A stretch of 64,000 bases of DNA from Phycisphaerae bacterium. Its GTDB lineage: Bacteria; Planctomycetota; Phycisphaerae; Sedimentisphaerales; Anaerobacaceae. Under the pieces are notes generated by a model that searched no databases, had not been told where the DNA came from, and worked only from the letters and a program-made list of their open reading frames with translations. The stretch covers positions 1 to 64,000 of the forward strand of contig JAQTLP010000006.1 of NCBI GenBank assembly GCA_028714855.1. The letters run 5' to 3'. Made by a program: the position numbers and the translations under genes. Shown piece after piece: positions 24,653-49,759 of this stretch. The number at the start of each line of letters is the position of its first letter. Position 1 is the first letter of the stretch.

Positions 24653-25480
24653 ATGGCAATTTCCGCTAAAGAGATAAAAGAACTGGAAAAGGCAGCGAAG
24701 AGGCTGCGCTATGATATCGTGATGATGATTGGGACGGGTAAGCCCGGCCATTTGGGCGGATCGTGCTCAATCGCTGATATTGTCGCTGTGTTTTATTTTC
24801 ACAAGATGCGTCATAACCCGAAGGAGCCGAAATTTCCGGACAGGGACAGGTTCGTACTGAGTAAAGGTCACGCAGCTCTGGCACAATACGCAGCACTGGC
24901 CGAGTGCGGATATTTCCCGAAAAAAGAGTTAAGCACTCTGAAAGAACTCGGCACTATAGTGCAGGGACACCCTGAAATGCGAAGGATGCCGGGCATCGAG
25001 GCATACACAGGATCATTGGGGCAGGGACTGAGCGTCGCATGCGGAATGGCGATGGCAGGAAAGATTGATAAGAAAAATTACAAGGTTTACTGTATAGTCG
25101 GAGACGGAGAAATAGCAGAAGGCCAGATATGGGAGGCGTCGATGACGGCGGCCTTTTATAAGCTGGACAACCTCGTTGCCATTTTCGACAAAAACCTTGT
25201 CCAAGCAACGGGGCCTATCGTCGAGCGATACGATACGAATCCGCACGTGGAAAAATGGAAGGCGTTCGGCTGGGAGGTTTTTGAAATCGACGGACACGAT
25301 ATCAAGCAAATAGCCGATGCGCTGGACGACGCAGACAAAGTCAAGGACAAGCCCGTTATGATTGTCGCACGGACGATAAAGAGCAAGGGAGTGCCTTTTG
25401 CCGAGGGCAAGGCAGAGTTCCATCACGGGATAATGACGGAAGAACAGCACAAAACAGCGAGACAACTATTCGAGGAGTAA
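24653..25480 (+). CDS. Transketolase, N-terminal subunit
   Basis: A 275-residue protein equal to the ThDP-pyrophosphate half of transketolase. SKGHAALAQYAALAECGYFP holds the conserved His of the active site, GSLGQGLSVACGMAMA follows, and VYCIVGDGEIAEGQIWEASMTA is the GDG...N-type ThDP/Mg2+ motif. The chosen ATG has GAAGGG upstream; the open frame to 24476 is not needed. It works as a heteromer with the next gene, moving two-carbon ketol units. Split transketolases serve the pentose phosphate route or specialised paths such as apulose-4-phosphate cleavage. The operon context with a GntP permease argues for a catabolic role. Confidence 0.93.
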   Translation: MAISAKEIKELEKAAKRLRYDIVMMIGTGKPGHLGGSCSIADIVAVFYFHKMRHNPKEPKFPDRDRFVLSKGHAALAQYAALAECGYFPKKELSTLKELGTIVQGHPEMRRMPGIEAYTGSLGQGLSVACGMAMAGKIDKKNYKVYCIVGDGEIAEGQIWEASMTAAFYKLDNLVAIFDKNLVQATGPIVERYDTNPHVEKWKAFGWEVFEIDGHDIKQIADALDDADKVKDKPVMIVARTIKSKGVPFAEGKAEFHHGIMTEEQHKTARQLFEE

Positions 25481-25490
25481 GGATAAATTA

Positions 25491-26417
25491 ATGGGTATGC
25501 AAAACTGCAGAACGGTATACGGCGAAACCTTAGTTGAGTTAGGCAAAGAGAACGAGCGAATCGTGGTATTGGAAGCAGACCTTGGCAAGACCACGATGAC
25601 GAAGTTTTTCGAGAAGGAATTTCCCGGGCGGTTCTTTGAGATGGGTATCGGCGAACAGAATATGATTTCCACCGCGGCCGGCCTAGCGCTATCGGGAAAA
25701 ATCGCATTTGCGAATTCCTTCGCAGTATTCGCCACCGGGCGGCCTTACGACCAGATTCGCGTCAGCTGTATCGGCGAGTTAAACGTTAAGATAGTCGGCT
25801 CAAGCTGCGGGCTTTCGGATTTCGGAGACGGGGCTACACATCAGGGCATCGAGGACGTCGCCATTATGCGGGCATTACCGAACATGACGGTATTGTCCCC
25901 TGCCGACGGCATAGAAACAAGAAAGATGACAAGAGCGGCGGCCGAGCATGAAGGCCCGGTGTATATGCGCATCCTTCGCAACGACGTGCCGGACGTTACC
26001 GATGAAAAGCAGGAATTTAAAATCGGCAAACCCTCCATGATACGGGAAGGTTCGGACATTACTGTCTTCGCTCACGGCTATATGATTTATAAGGCGCTCA
26101 AGGCCGCTGAAACATTGGAAAAAGAGGGCGTGTCCCTACGGATAGTAAATGTCAGCACTTTGAAGCCGATTGACGAGAAAGAGATTAAGAAATTAGCAAG
26201 CGGAGTAAAAGGGGTCGTAACGGTCGAGGAGCACACGATAATCGGCGGACTTGCCAGCGCAATTGCTTTTATACTTAGAGGAACGGCCACACCGATAGAG
26301 GCGGTCGCCGTGCAGGATTGTTTCGGCCAGTCGGCATTGAATTATGAGCAGCTGCTGGAACATTACGGCCTGACTGATACGGCAATTGTCAAGGCGGTCA
26401 AAAAAGTTTTAGGATAA
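25491..26417 (+). CDS. Transketolase, C-terminal subunit
   Basis: A 308-residue protein equal to the pyrimidine-binding and C-terminal domains of transketolase. ADLGKTTMTKFFEKEFPGRFFEMGIGEQNMISTAAGLALSGK contains the conserved catalytic Glu (GIGEQNM) that activates ThDP. FGDGATHQGIEDVAIMRALPNMTVLSPADG is the family signature, and VVTVEEHTIIGGLASAIA ends the domain. It starts ten bases after the N-terminal subunit gene and is followed five bases later by a dehydrogenase gene, so all are clearly one operon. Confidence 0.93.
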   Translation: MGMQNCRTVYGETLVELGKENERIVVLEADLGKTTMTKFFEKEFPGRFFEMGIGEQNMISTAAGLALSGKIAFANSFAVFATGRPYDQIRVSCIGELNVKIVGSSCGLSDFGDGATHQGIEDVAIMRALPNMTVLSPADGIETRKMTRAAAEHEGPVYMRILRNDVPDVTDEKQEFKIGKPSMIREGSDITVFAHGYMIYKALKAAETLEKEGVSLRIVNVSTLKPIDEKEIKKLASGVKGVVTVEEHTIIGGLASAIAFILRGTATPIEAVAVQDCFGQSALNYEQLLEHYGLTDTAIVKAVKKVLG

Positions 26418-45834: not shown

Positions 45835-47517
45835 ATGAAAACACAAAACTCAGCCTATCTGCCGCCGACACAGCACGCCGTGCAACTAATTGGTAAAGAC
45901 AAACTGGTCTTTAATAAACGCAAAGAGGTTTTCACACCCGGCAGAGGCCAGATTCTTTGCAGGGTTGAGGCGGTCGGCCTGTGTTTTTCCGACCTTAAAT
46001 TGCTCAAGCAATTTTCCTCGCACGTCCGCAAGAGCAAAATAATCTCCGGCATTGATTCCGCCGTACTTAGAGAAATTCCCAGTTATGTCCCCAATGAGGC
46101 GCCCGCTGTGCCGGGTCACGAAACAGTGGTGAGAATAGCAGCAGTTGGTCCGGGCGTGAAAAATTTTAAATGCGGTCAGCGATATCTGGTTCAGACCGAT
46201 TACCGCTGGCTGCGCACCGCCGGCTCAAACGCCGCCTTCGGCTACAACTTCGAAGGCGCTCTCCAGGAATATGTGCTGATGGACCAGAGAATTATCACTT
46301 CCCCAAAGGGCGAATCGATGTTACTACCGGTTTCAGAAGAGCTTTCCGCCTCAGCGATAGCTTTGGTGGAGCCATGGGCCTGTGTCGAAGACGCCTACGC
46401 CGCCCCGGAACGGCGAAAATTAAAATCGGACGGCCGGATGCTGGTTGTTGCCGGCGTCGGCGTTGCTGAAGATATTTTTACCGGCTTGTTTAATCACTAT
46501 GGACGTCCGGCGCAAATAACCTGGCTCTCGAAGTTCCCGGCGCAGGCGGGGCTGAATGTTATAAAAACCAACGCAAAAAAAATATCGCAGCTTCCCGATA
46601 CCGCCTATGATGATGTAATTTATTTCGGGTCTGAGCCGGAAGCAGTCGAAGCTTTATTTGCAAAAGTCGCTCCTTATGGCCTTTTCAATATTGTTCTTTG
46701 CGGCGGCAGCCTTCGCAGAGACATTGTCACTATGGTCGGCCGAGTCCATTACAGTAACATTCGAATAATCGGCACCACCGGCTCGGACCCCGCTGAATCT
46801 ATGAAGCATATCCCGGCCGCCGCCGAAATCCGCCCGGACGACAAAATCAATTGTATCGGTGCAGGCGGGCCTATGGGAACAATGCACGTCATTCGAAATA
46901 TCTGTCAGCAAGTCAAAGACGTTAGCGTTTTTGCCGCCGATACAGATGAAGACAGGCTGGCCGCCCTTTCTGAAATAGTTGCGCCTCTTGCCGAAAAGAA
47001 CAACGTCACGTATAAACCTTACAATCCGGCAAAGGTCAAAGTCGAAGATGCTTTTGATTATACAGTATTGATGGCGCCTCTCCCCGAACTGCTGGCCGAT
47101 TCGGTTAAAAACGCCGCTAAGGGGGGCATTATAAACATATTCGCAGGTCTGCCTGCGACGGTTACTGCAAAAATCAATCTCGACGTTTACATAGAAAAGC
47201 AATTGTATTTTGTCGGCACCAGCGGCTCCGTTCTCGAAGATATGAAACGAATGCTGGCCAAAGCCGAATCCGGCCGGCTCGACACCAATGTCTCCGTCGG
47301 AGCTGTTTGCGGACTCGATGGCGCGATTGATGGAATTCGAGCGGTTGAAAACAGGTCGATAACTGGTAAAATTATCGTATACCCGGCCTGCAAAGGTTTA
47401 GCTCTTACGCCGCTGGCAAAGTTAAAAGAAAAAATGCCGCAGGTCGCTGAGTGTCTCAATAATGGATTGTGGACAAAGCAGGCAGAAGAAAAATTGCTGG
47501 AAAGTTTCACGGTTTGA
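45835..47517 (+). CDS. SorE-like (L-sorbose-1-phosphate reductase-type) medium-chain dehydrogenase
   Basis: A 560-residue protein, much longer than a standard 350-410-residue MDR enzyme. The N-terminal 200 residues are an MDR catalytic domain: VEAVGLCFSDLKLL has the zinc Cys and VPGHETVVRIAAVG the His-Glu. KCGQRYLVQTDYRWLRTAGS and GYNFEGALQEYVLMDQRII are close in pattern to SorE. Two Rossmann-like stretches follow (MLVVAGVGVAEDIFTGLF near 205 and KINCIGAGGPMGTMHVIRNIC near 340). No structural-zinc CxxCxxC is present. It probably acts on a sugar or sugar phosphate. The class II aldolase gene overlaps its stop. The start is uncertain: an ATG at 45805 is in frame, and neither has a strong RBS. 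Confidence 0.72.
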   Translation: MKTQNSAYLPPTQHAVQLIGKDKLVFNKRKEVFTPGRGQILCRVEAVGLCFSDLKLLKQFSSHVRKSKIISGIDSAVLREIPSYVPNEAPAVPGHETVVRIAAVGPGVKNFKCGQRYLVQTDYRWLRTAGSNAAFGYNFEGALQEYVLMDQRIITSPKGESMLLPVSEELSASAIALVEPWACVEDAYAAPERRKLKSDGRMLVVAGVGVAEDIFTGLFNHYGRPAQITWLSKFPAQAGLNVIKTNAKKISQLPDTAYDDVIYFGSEPEAVEALFAKVAPYGLFNIVLCGGSLRRDIVTMVGRVHYSNIRIIGTTGSDPAESMKHIPAAAEIRPDDKINCIGAGGPMGTMHVIRNICQQVKDVSVFAADTDEDRLAALSEIVAPLAEKNNVTYKPYNPAKVKVEDAFDYTVLMAPLPELLADSVKNAAKGGIINIFAGLPATVTAKINLDVYIEKQLYFVGTSGSVLEDMKRMLAKAESGRLDTNVSVGAVCGLDGAIDGIRAVENRSITGKIIVYPACKGLALTPLAKLKEKMPQVAECLNNGLWTKQAEEKLLESFTV

Positions 47518-48695
47518 CTTCGATAAATAAAGCATTAGCGGATTTGATAAGTATATCAAACATCACTGGCAAAGATTCTGCCCTTATTCAGGGCGGAGGC
47601 GGCAACACGTCCGTAAAAACGGCGGACGGCAGGTTCATGTATATCAAGGCCAGCGGTACTGATTTGAAGGATATGAATAAACACGCCGGCTGGTGCAAGC
47701 TGCGGCCGGCTCCGGTCCTCGCTATTATAAAGGATAAATCAATAGCCAAACTCGGCATCCAGGCAAGGGAAACTAAAATCGTCAAACGCCTGCTGCTCGC
47801 CTGCGACGGCAAGGCCTCCGCCGGCTCCCGTCCGTCAGTCGAAGCGCACCTGCACGCTATGCTCGGCAAGTGCGTGATTCATTTGCATCCCGTTGCGGTC
47901 TTGTCTTTCGCCTGTGCCAAAAACGGCCGGGCCGAGCTCGAAAAACTGTTTAAAAATGAAAAGTTTCCTCCCCTTTGGGTCCCTTATGCACACCCCGGCT
48001 TTACACTCGCAAATAAATTTGCGAAATTGAACGCTGATTATCAGAATCGATTCGGCGTAAAACCTTCCGTCCTTTTTCTGCAGAAGCATGGACTTATTAT
48101 TTCCGCCGATAGCCCCAACGCCGCTCTGCGACTGCTGCGCAGAGTCATAAATCGATGTGCCGGCAAATTAAAATACCCCAAAGCCACGAGGACAAAACCG
48201 CCAAATCAGCAAATCATTGCTGAAATAAAATCGTGTATTCACGATGCGCTCTATAATGCGACCGGCTGCTGCGCTGCGATAAGTTATTTTTACGACGACG
48301 AAATCGCGGCGTTTTGGCACAAAAAAAATGCACGGAAGCGGCTTTCTCCGCCGGCCTTGACGCCTGATGAATTGCTTTACGCCAACGGCCCGGCAATGTG
48401 GATAGAGGATTGTAATCCGAAAAGAATCGCACGCAGATTGAACCGGTTAATCAAAAAAGGTAAAAATCCCCCTGCTGCTTTTCTGGTTAAAGGCGCCGGA
48501 CTGTTCGTTGCTGCAATAGATAAAATCGCTCCTGCCGTCAGGGACATTGTTAAAAACTCCTTCGTTATCCGCACCAATGCGTCCCGTTTCGGCGGCATTC
48601 TCGCTTTGAATAAACCTGAGCAGGACTTTATTAACCGCTGGGAGGCCGATGCTTTCCGAAAAAAACTGGCAAATGATGCCTCTCCTGTTGTATAA
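47514..48695 (+). CDS. Class II aldolase/adducin domain protein
   Basis: A 393-residue protein. LISISNITGKDSALIQGGGGNTSVKTADGRFMYIKASGTDL is the family start. SVEAHLHAMLGKCVIHLHPVAVLSFACAKN contains the metal-binding His-x-His (HLHP) and upstream Glu, as in fuculose/rhamnulose-1-phosphate aldolases and in the N-terminal domain of YuxG-type proteins. The C-terminal half is unlike simple aldolases and I do not recognise it. I choose the TTG at 47514, overlapping the preceding stop (TTGA), which suggests translational coupling; an ATG at 47469 would overlap by 49 bases. It would cleave a ketose phosphate made by the preceding SorE-like enzyme. Confidence 0.75.
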   Translation: MTSINKALADLISISNITGKDSALIQGGGGNTSVKTADGRFMYIKASGTDLKDMNKHAGWCKLRPAPVLAIIKDKSIAKLGIQARETKIVKRLLLACDGKASAGSRPSVEAHLHAMLGKCVIHLHPVAVLSFACAKNGRAELEKLFKNEKFPPLWVPYAHPGFTLANKFAKLNADYQNRFGVKPSVLFLQKHGLIISADSPNAALRLLRRVINRCAGKLKYPKATRTKPPNQQIIAEIKSCIHDALYNATGCCAAISYFYDDEIAAFWHKKNARKRLSPPALTPDELLYANGPAMWIEDCNPKRIARRLNRLIKKGKNPPAAFLVKGAGLFVAAIDKIAPAVRDIVKNSFVIRTNASRFGGILALNKPEQDFINRWEADAFRKKLANDASPVV

Positions 48696-48721
48696 CTAAT
48701 ACGTAATACGAGGTTTGATAA

Positions 48722-49759
48722 ATGGCAAAGGAAATCAGACTACCACAATTCGGCCAAACGATGGAAGAAGGGACGATTGTTGACTGCCCCGTCAAAATCG
48801 GCGACGAGGTCAGGAAAGGCGATTGTGTTTTCGAGATAGAAATCGACAAAACGACCCTCGAGATGGAATCACCCGCCGACGGCTTTGTAAAATATATTCT
48901 TGTCGAAGTCGGCCGGACTGTCCCTGTCGGTGAGCCGCTAATTGTGCTCGGCGGTAAAGATGAGAAGGTCCCCCATAGTTTTCTTGATTCACTCAAAACC
49001 GCCGTTGCCGCAAAACCAGCCACGCAGCCCGTCTACGCCCCCGCTGCAACTGCTGGAACACCCGACATTAAGGCAGAAGTCAAAGTCGGAAAAATAATAC
49101 CCCTGACAAAGAAGCAAAAATTAATCGCCGATAGAATGCTCAAATCGAAAAGAGAGCTCCCCTGCTTCTATCTGACCGCAAGGGCCGATGTTACCGCCAT
49201 GGTCGAGCTGCGGGACCAATTAAACAAATCCGCCGACATGAAAATTACCTATAATGATTTTATTATAAAAGCCGTTGCAACGGGGCTGCAGAAATTTCCG
49301 CTTATGACAGGCCAATTGGCCGGCAATGCCATAAATCTCCCCCCTTCCATTAATATTGGGCTGGCCGTTTCGACCCCGGATGGCCTCGTCGTCCCTGTTA
49401 TAAAAGACGTTCAGAAAAAGAATATAATGCAAATCGCCGCGGACTCAGCCGCCCTTATCGAAAAGGCCCGCAACGAAAAATTACTGCTCACCGACCTCGA
49501 AGGCGCATGCATTACCATCAGCAATCTCGGTGCTTTTGGAATATACTCCTTTATTCCGATAGTCATCCCCGGCCAGTGCAGCATCCTCGGCATCGGCCAA
49601 ACAACCAACGTCTGCGTCCCGGATAATGGTAATGTTTCGATACGAAAGTTAATGAATATGACGCTTTCGGTGGACCACAAAATTGCAAACGGCGCTTATG
49701 CCGCTCAGTTCCTCGACTTCACAAGAAAACTGCTCGAAGATACTTCTACCTTTGCATAA
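48722..49759 (+). CDS. E2-like 2-oxoacid dehydrogenase acyltransferase lacking a peripheral-subunit-binding domain
   Basis: A 345-residue protein. Residues 1-78 are a lipoyl domain with the lipoylated Lys in IEIDKTTLEMESPADGFV. An Ala/Pro linker follows (about 95-115) and leads directly into the catalytic domain (KIIPLTKKQKLIADRMLKSKRELPCFYL on). The usual binding domain for E1/E3 is absent. The active-site motif DHxxxDG reads DHKIANG: His319 is kept, but the catalytic Asp is Asn323. Trimer-core segments such as NIGLAVSTPDGLVVPVIKDV and ITISNLGAFGIYSF are intact. No E1 or E3 gene is adjacent. It may transfer acyl groups weakly, or act as a lipoyl carrier with a scaffold role. It follows the aldolase gene by 26 bases. 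Confidence 0.85.
   Translation: MAKEIRLPQFGQTMEEGTIVDCPVKIGDEVRKGDCVFEIEIDKTTLEMESPADGFVKYILVEVGRTVPVGEPLIVLGGKDEKVPHSFLDSLKTAVAAKPATQPVYAPAATAGTPDIKAEVKVGKIIPLTKKQKLIADRMLKSKRELPCFYLTARADVTAMVELRDQLNKSADMKITYNDFIIKAVATGLQKFPLMTGQLAGNAINLPPSINIGLAVSTPDGLVVPVIKDVQKKNIMQIAADSAALIEKARNEKLLLTDLEGACITISNLGAFGIYSFIPIVIPGQCSILGIGQTTNVCVPDNGNVSIRKLMNMTLSVDHKIANGAYAAQFLDFTRKLLEDTSTFA

Follow-up and report, generated by a model that had tools for sequence, protein, structure and literature searches.

E2 acyltransferases form the core of a three-enzyme complex, and the E2 of the pyruvate dehydrogenase (PDH) complex joins a lipoyl domain (PF00364), a peripheral-subunit-binding domain (PF02817) and a catalytic domain (PF00198). 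Without the partners E1 and E3, oxidative decarboxylation by the usual route is impossible. The E2 considered here is the last of three consecutive genes, after a dehydrogenase and a class II aldolase, in a stretch of 64,000 nucleotides from a Phycisphaerae bacterium (GCA_028714855.1, contig JAQTLP010000006.1, positions 1 to 64,000; hereafter the window). It shares the lipoyl lysine, the CAT-like domain and the catalytic histidine with the PDH-complex E2, but it has no PF02817 domain, and no E1 and no E3 over cut-off was found in the genome.

The closest described pathway for the aldolase is the RhaEW-type L-rhamnose pathway, composed of RhaA, RhaB and the bifunctional RhaEW (Rodionova et al. 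2013, PMC3870299), in which RhaEW converts L-rhamnulose-1-phosphate to dihydroxyacetone phosphate (DHAP) and L-lactate (PMC3870299). The window aldolase resembles the RhaE half, and RhaA and rhamnulokinase also adjoin the aldolase in relatives; the window differs from this pathway in lacking the RhaW half and in its extra 560-aa zinc dehydrogenase, and a search of the genome yielded no rhamnulokinase. SorE (L-sorbose-1-phosphate reductase) and other zinc polyol dehydrogenases have the same medium-chain zinc fold and motifs as the window dehydrogenase, which differs from them by roughly 130 extra residues and by its slight similarity to solved members. Sedimentisphaerales are described as strictly fermentative, and rhamnose degradation is commonly predicted in them (2024 survey, PMC11266412). 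We consider it an even bet that the three genes are the remnant of a 6-deoxyhexose locus linked to a PDH-type complex, from which the E2 was kept as a free-standing lipoylated acyltransferase.

An E2 without a binding domain or detected partners

Pfam matches cover residues 3-76 (Biotin_lipoyl, PF00364, 2.9e-20) and 125-342 (2-oxoacid_dh, PF00198, 6.5e-72) of the window E2. A first, sequence-only reading of the window had credited this protein with a good lipoyl domain and no E1/E3-binding domain, and both descriptions were borne out: the acceptor Lys43 is present, E3_binding (PF02817) gave no match although the same Pfam library detects it in the E2 of a relative, and the interdomain linker is 42 residues long, against 96-120 in the linked, binding-domain-bearing E2s of the clade. 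The start of the linker, DEKVPHSFLDSLK, agrees with that of complex E2s, e.g. DEKVPRSFVDSLK.

Asn323 had been read as an oddity in place of the catalytic Asp. The residue is indeed there, but it is not odd. The motif DHxxxNG, with Asn at this position, was present in all 15 E2s of the same clade that bear a binding domain, including the E1-linked E2s of two relatives (G051 and G110), and the wild-type PDH E2 of Azotobacter vinelandii (E2p, 1EAA) reads DHRVING, 1DPC being the Asp form and 1DPB carrying Cys at the His. Lost or altered catalysis as the meaning of Asn323 is ruled out by these comparisons, and the residue is compatible with a working enzyme since it is common to the clade E2s and to wild-type E2p.

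Partner enzymes were searched for in three genomes of the genus: that of the window (G000, 98.3% complete), G001 (98%) and G002 (89%). With the E1 of relatives as query, only transketolase-type matches of 25-28% were obtained in G000 and only weak ones in G001 and G002. No E3 over the curated cut-off was found in any of the three, the best match to TIGR01350 being partial (147.6 bits, cut-off 408.8). The picture of an E2 without E1 and E3 thus extends genome-wide as far as these genomes were searched. An ordinary complex whose E1 and E3 happen to be missing from the assemblies is very unlikely; the genomes are assembled fragments and G002 is only 89% complete, but both partners went undetected in two 98%-complete genomes, and the E2 of each has no binding domain with which to hold them. 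Within the window, positions 25419-26243 gave a low-scoring transketolase-like match that crosses two stop codons next to a frame of 326 aa, and is probably an overrun past the end of that gene.

Lipoyl synthase, LipA, was found in G000 (366.6 bits) as part of a 502-aa fused LipB-LipA open reading frame (ORF) (L151:8486-9994, G000:C4), which adjoins a biotin-ligase-like gene. GcvH was not found in G000-G002; of the 20 genomes searched for it, 15 had it. The Biotin_lipoyl proteins found in G000 and G001 were the E2 and a biotin carrier with the motif AMKM, encoded next to biotin carboxylase. The E2 is the sole lipoate client found in these two genomes, because GcvH is absent from the matches and the one further protein with PF00364 carries biotin.

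A lipoyl arm can also serve in other ways, as in mycobacteria, where DlaT/SucB is a dithiol redox carrier acting with AhpD. That the window E2 is such a carrier and not an acyltransferase seems quite unlikely: the lipoyl lysine is kept and an acyltransferase site alone is no proof of acyl transfer, but no E3 over cut-off was found to reduce the arm, no peroxidase gene adjoins the E2, and the catalytic His/Asn site is conserved.

Rhamnose-type loci in relatives

Of 148 relatives that belong to the same order, 122 carry a member of the dehydrogenase family. Eighty named genome loci, drawn mainly from Phycisphaerae and Sedimentisphaerales and to a lesser extent from Verrucomicrobia, Lentisphaerae and other groups, were compared, many of them on short contigs. 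The neighbours of the dehydrogenase across the 80 loci were a PHP-like gene (66), rhamnulokinase (50), the rhamnose isomerase RhaA (45), a transporter (38), the aldolase (37) and E1 (16). In the relative G051 a single strand carries RhaK, PHP-like, dehydrogenase, DUF2961, RhaA, transporter, aldolase, fused E1 and E2, an order that is preserved in the window as dehydrogenase-aldolase-E2, the other genes being missing there. Another set of loci unites E1, DeoR, E2, E3, dehydrogenase, kinase and aldolase, and the loci of relatives often adjoin an ordinary E2 together with a fused E1 of the pyruvate-dehydrogenase type.

For the E1, E3 and kinase genes whose survey in relatives had been proposed, the loci give E1 in 16 of 80, rhamnulokinase in 50 of 80, and E3 in one group. 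The same genes recur as an L-rhamnose-type locus, often linked to a PDH-type complex, so that they belong together as had been supposed, but the view that the trio matches no described pathway is not supported. A PDH-type operon in relatives with these genes as chance neighbours had been named as what would refute the earlier reading; the PDH-type linkage was found, but it is too frequent for chance, and a chance neighbourhood is ruled out by the recurrence of the locus.

Rhamnulokinase reached only 33.9 bits in the genome of the window against a cut-off of 527.95. RhaA was not among the clustered ORFs around the trio, no genome-wide RhaA search being made. The open-licence literature gave no description of rhamnose-type breakdown linked with a PDH-type complex in fermentative planctomycetes, and searches of it on Phycisphaerae rhamnose and PDH genes, orphan or stand-alone E2s and partnerless lipoylation gave nothing on this system. 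Two kinds of proteins of about 430 aa also occur in the rhamnose loci (L034:7629-8930 and L049:6207-7493), one with a weak PHP match and the other without a Pfam or NCBIfam match.

The best curated matches of the window aldolase were the N-terminal parts of NCBIfam models for the bifunctional rhamnulose-1-phosphate aldolase/dehydrogenase, below the full-length cut-offs. No adh_short match (Pfam), representing the RhaW short-chain dehydrogenase half, was found in the 408-aa aldolase frame, while in some relatives the protein is full-length, at about 650 aa, or the dehydrogenase half is encoded by a gene of its own. The earlier view that the first two genes handle a ketose phosphate is supported.

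Conservation within the genus

In G001 the aldolase and E2 genes lie side by side in the same neighbourhood and the dehydrogenase is absent; in G002 the contig terminates within the dehydrogenase. The E2 is 69% identical to that of G001 (NG86 dN/dS about 0.18) and the aldolase 75% (about 0.15), ratios that are rough as dS is near 1 for both pairs; the dehydrogenase is 81% identical to that of G002 (about 0.17). All three genes are under purifying selection in the pairs tested, with rough dN/dS ratios of about 0.15-0.2.

These values bear on whether the trio is a functionless, decaying relic in which the E2 and aldolase have merely not yet been lost. Kinase, E1 and E3 were not found and the dehydrogenase was lost in G001, as such decay would predict, but the frames are intact, the dN/dS ratios within the genus are low, the catalytic residues are kept and LipB-LipA is retained with no other client found. 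We regard a relic as unlikely.

Lone E2s in the order and the origin of the window E2

E2s aligning end to end with the window E2, here called lone E2s, were read from search matches in 35 of 149 genomes, and the binding-domain segment was absent from all 21 examined. E1 was lacking in 15 of the 35 genomes (best E above 1e-20) and present in most of the others. The E1-less genomes tested outside the genus of the window have GcvH and E3 over cut-off, and because of this it is only in the genus of the window that the E2 is seen as sole client. In most other genomes the binding-domain-less E2 is away from any aldolase. In one set of relatives (f1; L116-L124, L155) the lone E2 typically lies near or before a ParA-type ATPase whose C-terminal domain is AMPK_CBM-like by eye, in a second (f2; L126, L128, L130) it adjoins a methyltransferase-like gene encoding about 283 aa, and the remaining lone E2s have no shared neighbour.

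The window E2 could instead belong to an older lineage of lone E2s, having moved beside the aldolase with the function of those lone E2s and no relation to rhamnose. Lone E2s are usually not near rhamnose genes and frequently have a ParA-type gene as neighbour, one relative (G040) carries both a lone and a complex E2, and the lone E2s of the window, G001 and f1 are grouped in the free tree (95/84), all of which speak for such an origin. The same 95/84 group includes the complex E2 of G040, however; a grouping of the window and G001 with the remaining complex E2s is not rejected (p-AU 0.26), the rows closest by path, G001 aside, are complex E2s, and the window E2 resembles a complex E2 both in following the aldolase and in the start of its linker. 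An older lone lineage is, on balance, the less probable account, but one to be taken seriously.

In the tree of lipoyl and catalytic domains the window and G001 E2s form a pair (100/98). The tree does not support one clean division of lone from binding-domain-bearing E2s, the starred branches requiring at least two changes. A clade that joins the window-G001 pair to the complex E2s of f1 was not rejected, at the p-AU given above. Gene order and the linker start favour descent of the window E2 in place from a complex E2, whereas the free tree leans to a paralogue; descent in place is not rejected.

Proposed origin and role of the trio

Descent of the E2 from a rhamnose/PDH-type locus is inferred from these comparisons. 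The trio would be the remains, in original order, of a larger 6-deoxyhexose (L-rhamnose-type) locus that is linked to a PDH-type complex in relatives, and the lineage of the window would have lost rhamnulokinase, E1, E3 and the subunit-binding domain of the E2, retaining the dehydrogenase, aldolase and E2. The lipoyl arm of the E2, presumably made by the fused LipB-LipA, may exchange acyl groups with CoA at His319/Asn323 without E1 or E3, as the lipoyl lysine, the acyltransferase site and LipB-LipA are all retained; dithiol redox work appears less likely. The aldolase most likely cleaves a ketose 1-phosphate to DHAP and an aldehyde, e.g. L-lactaldehyde, and the zinc dehydrogenase may act on a sugar or an aldehyde.

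Several points weigh against this account. The genomes are assemblies; not every genome of the genus carries all three genes, the dehydrogenase being absent from G001; the selection ratios are rough for the E2 and aldolase; and the free tree puts the window E2 mainly among lone E2s, in a six-member group (95/84) made up of lone E2s and one complex E2, that of G040.

A lipoyl-dependent transfer of a fragment derived from the aldolase, which the sequence-only reading had offered, is possible but gained no direct support: G001 has no dehydrogenase and most lone E2s are distant from an aldolase. In one version of such a route, the aldehyde released by the aldolase and dihydrolipoyl-E2 would form a hemithioacetal, the zinc dehydrogenase with NAD+ would oxidize it to an acyl-lipoyl thioester, and the E2 would yield acyl-CoA, free of E1 and E3. 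The partners and the binding domain would be dispensable because NAD+ does the oxidation. The presence of aldolase and E2 without the dehydrogenase in G001 speaks against this route, which we consider very improbable.

Both partners and the docking domain appear to have been lost from this lineage, which has kept the E2 and the lipoate-making protein. If the lipoylation is real, this would be a clean system in which to ask what a lipoyl acyltransferase does alone, and the recurrence of the lone form in other E1-less genomes of the order means that it is not one odd assembly. A smaller point is that rhamnose-type breakdown is tied to a PDH-type complex in fermentative planctomycetes.

Gene layout and the dehydrogenase

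The features of the trio are collected in Table 1. The three genes are intact plus-strand ORFs, in the order and with the tight spacing first described, and the E2 begins 26 bases past the aldolase stop. The listed aldolase ORF, the 408-aa frame, opens at GTG 47469. The aldolases of relatives begin MDKALADL.. or MNKALADL.., and the frame from TTG 47514 reads MTSINKALADL..; because this N-terminus agrees with theirs, the start is most likely TTG 47514, overlapping the TGA stop of the dehydrogenase. With that start, the TTGA overlap that had been noticed between the genes is right.

Table 1. Positions of the three genes and of the E2 domains in the window
Feature	Coordinates	Strand	Basis
Zinc-type medium-chain dehydrogenase, 560 aa	45835..47517	+	ADH_N 1.9e-11 (Pfam); medium-chain dehydrogenase fold in model
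Class II aldolase, RhaE-like, without RhaW half, 393 aa	47514..48695	+	Aldolase_II 2.2e-15 (Pfam); TTG start
E2 acyltransferase without peripheral-subunit-binding domain, 345 aa	48722..49759	+	PF00364 + PF00198, no PF02817
E2 lipoyl domain, acceptor Lys43 at 48848-48850	48728..48949	+	PF00364 match; EIDKTTLE
E2 acyltransferase catalytic domain, His319 at 49676-49678, Asn323 at 49688-49690	49094..49747	+	PF00198 match; DHKIANG

Sequence matches of the dehydrogenase to known zinc dehydrogenases were weak. A structural model built on 38 sequences (mean pLDDT 90.6) has the medium-chain zinc dehydrogenase fold and superimposes on 4c4o with a VIA-align Z of 28.1 (3.1 A over 321 residues). C50, H95 and E96 do not vary across the dehydrogenases of 38 relatives, and the same holds for most of the GAGGPMG stretch, which binds the nucleotide. 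The earlier label of a SorE-like protein agrees with the fold and motifs; the name SorE itself is tentative, since the NCBIfam matches were weak and mixed and none came from a SorE-specific model.

A second E2-like gene in the genome of the window (G000:C1:198323-198994; L053:9321-10034, minus strand) encodes 237 aa without a lipoyl domain, and DRRVTDE replaces DHxxxNG. This protein is ruled out as a substitute E2 by the missing lipoyl domain and the altered catalytic motif. Similar short E2s, about 230-270 aa in length, occur widely across the order.

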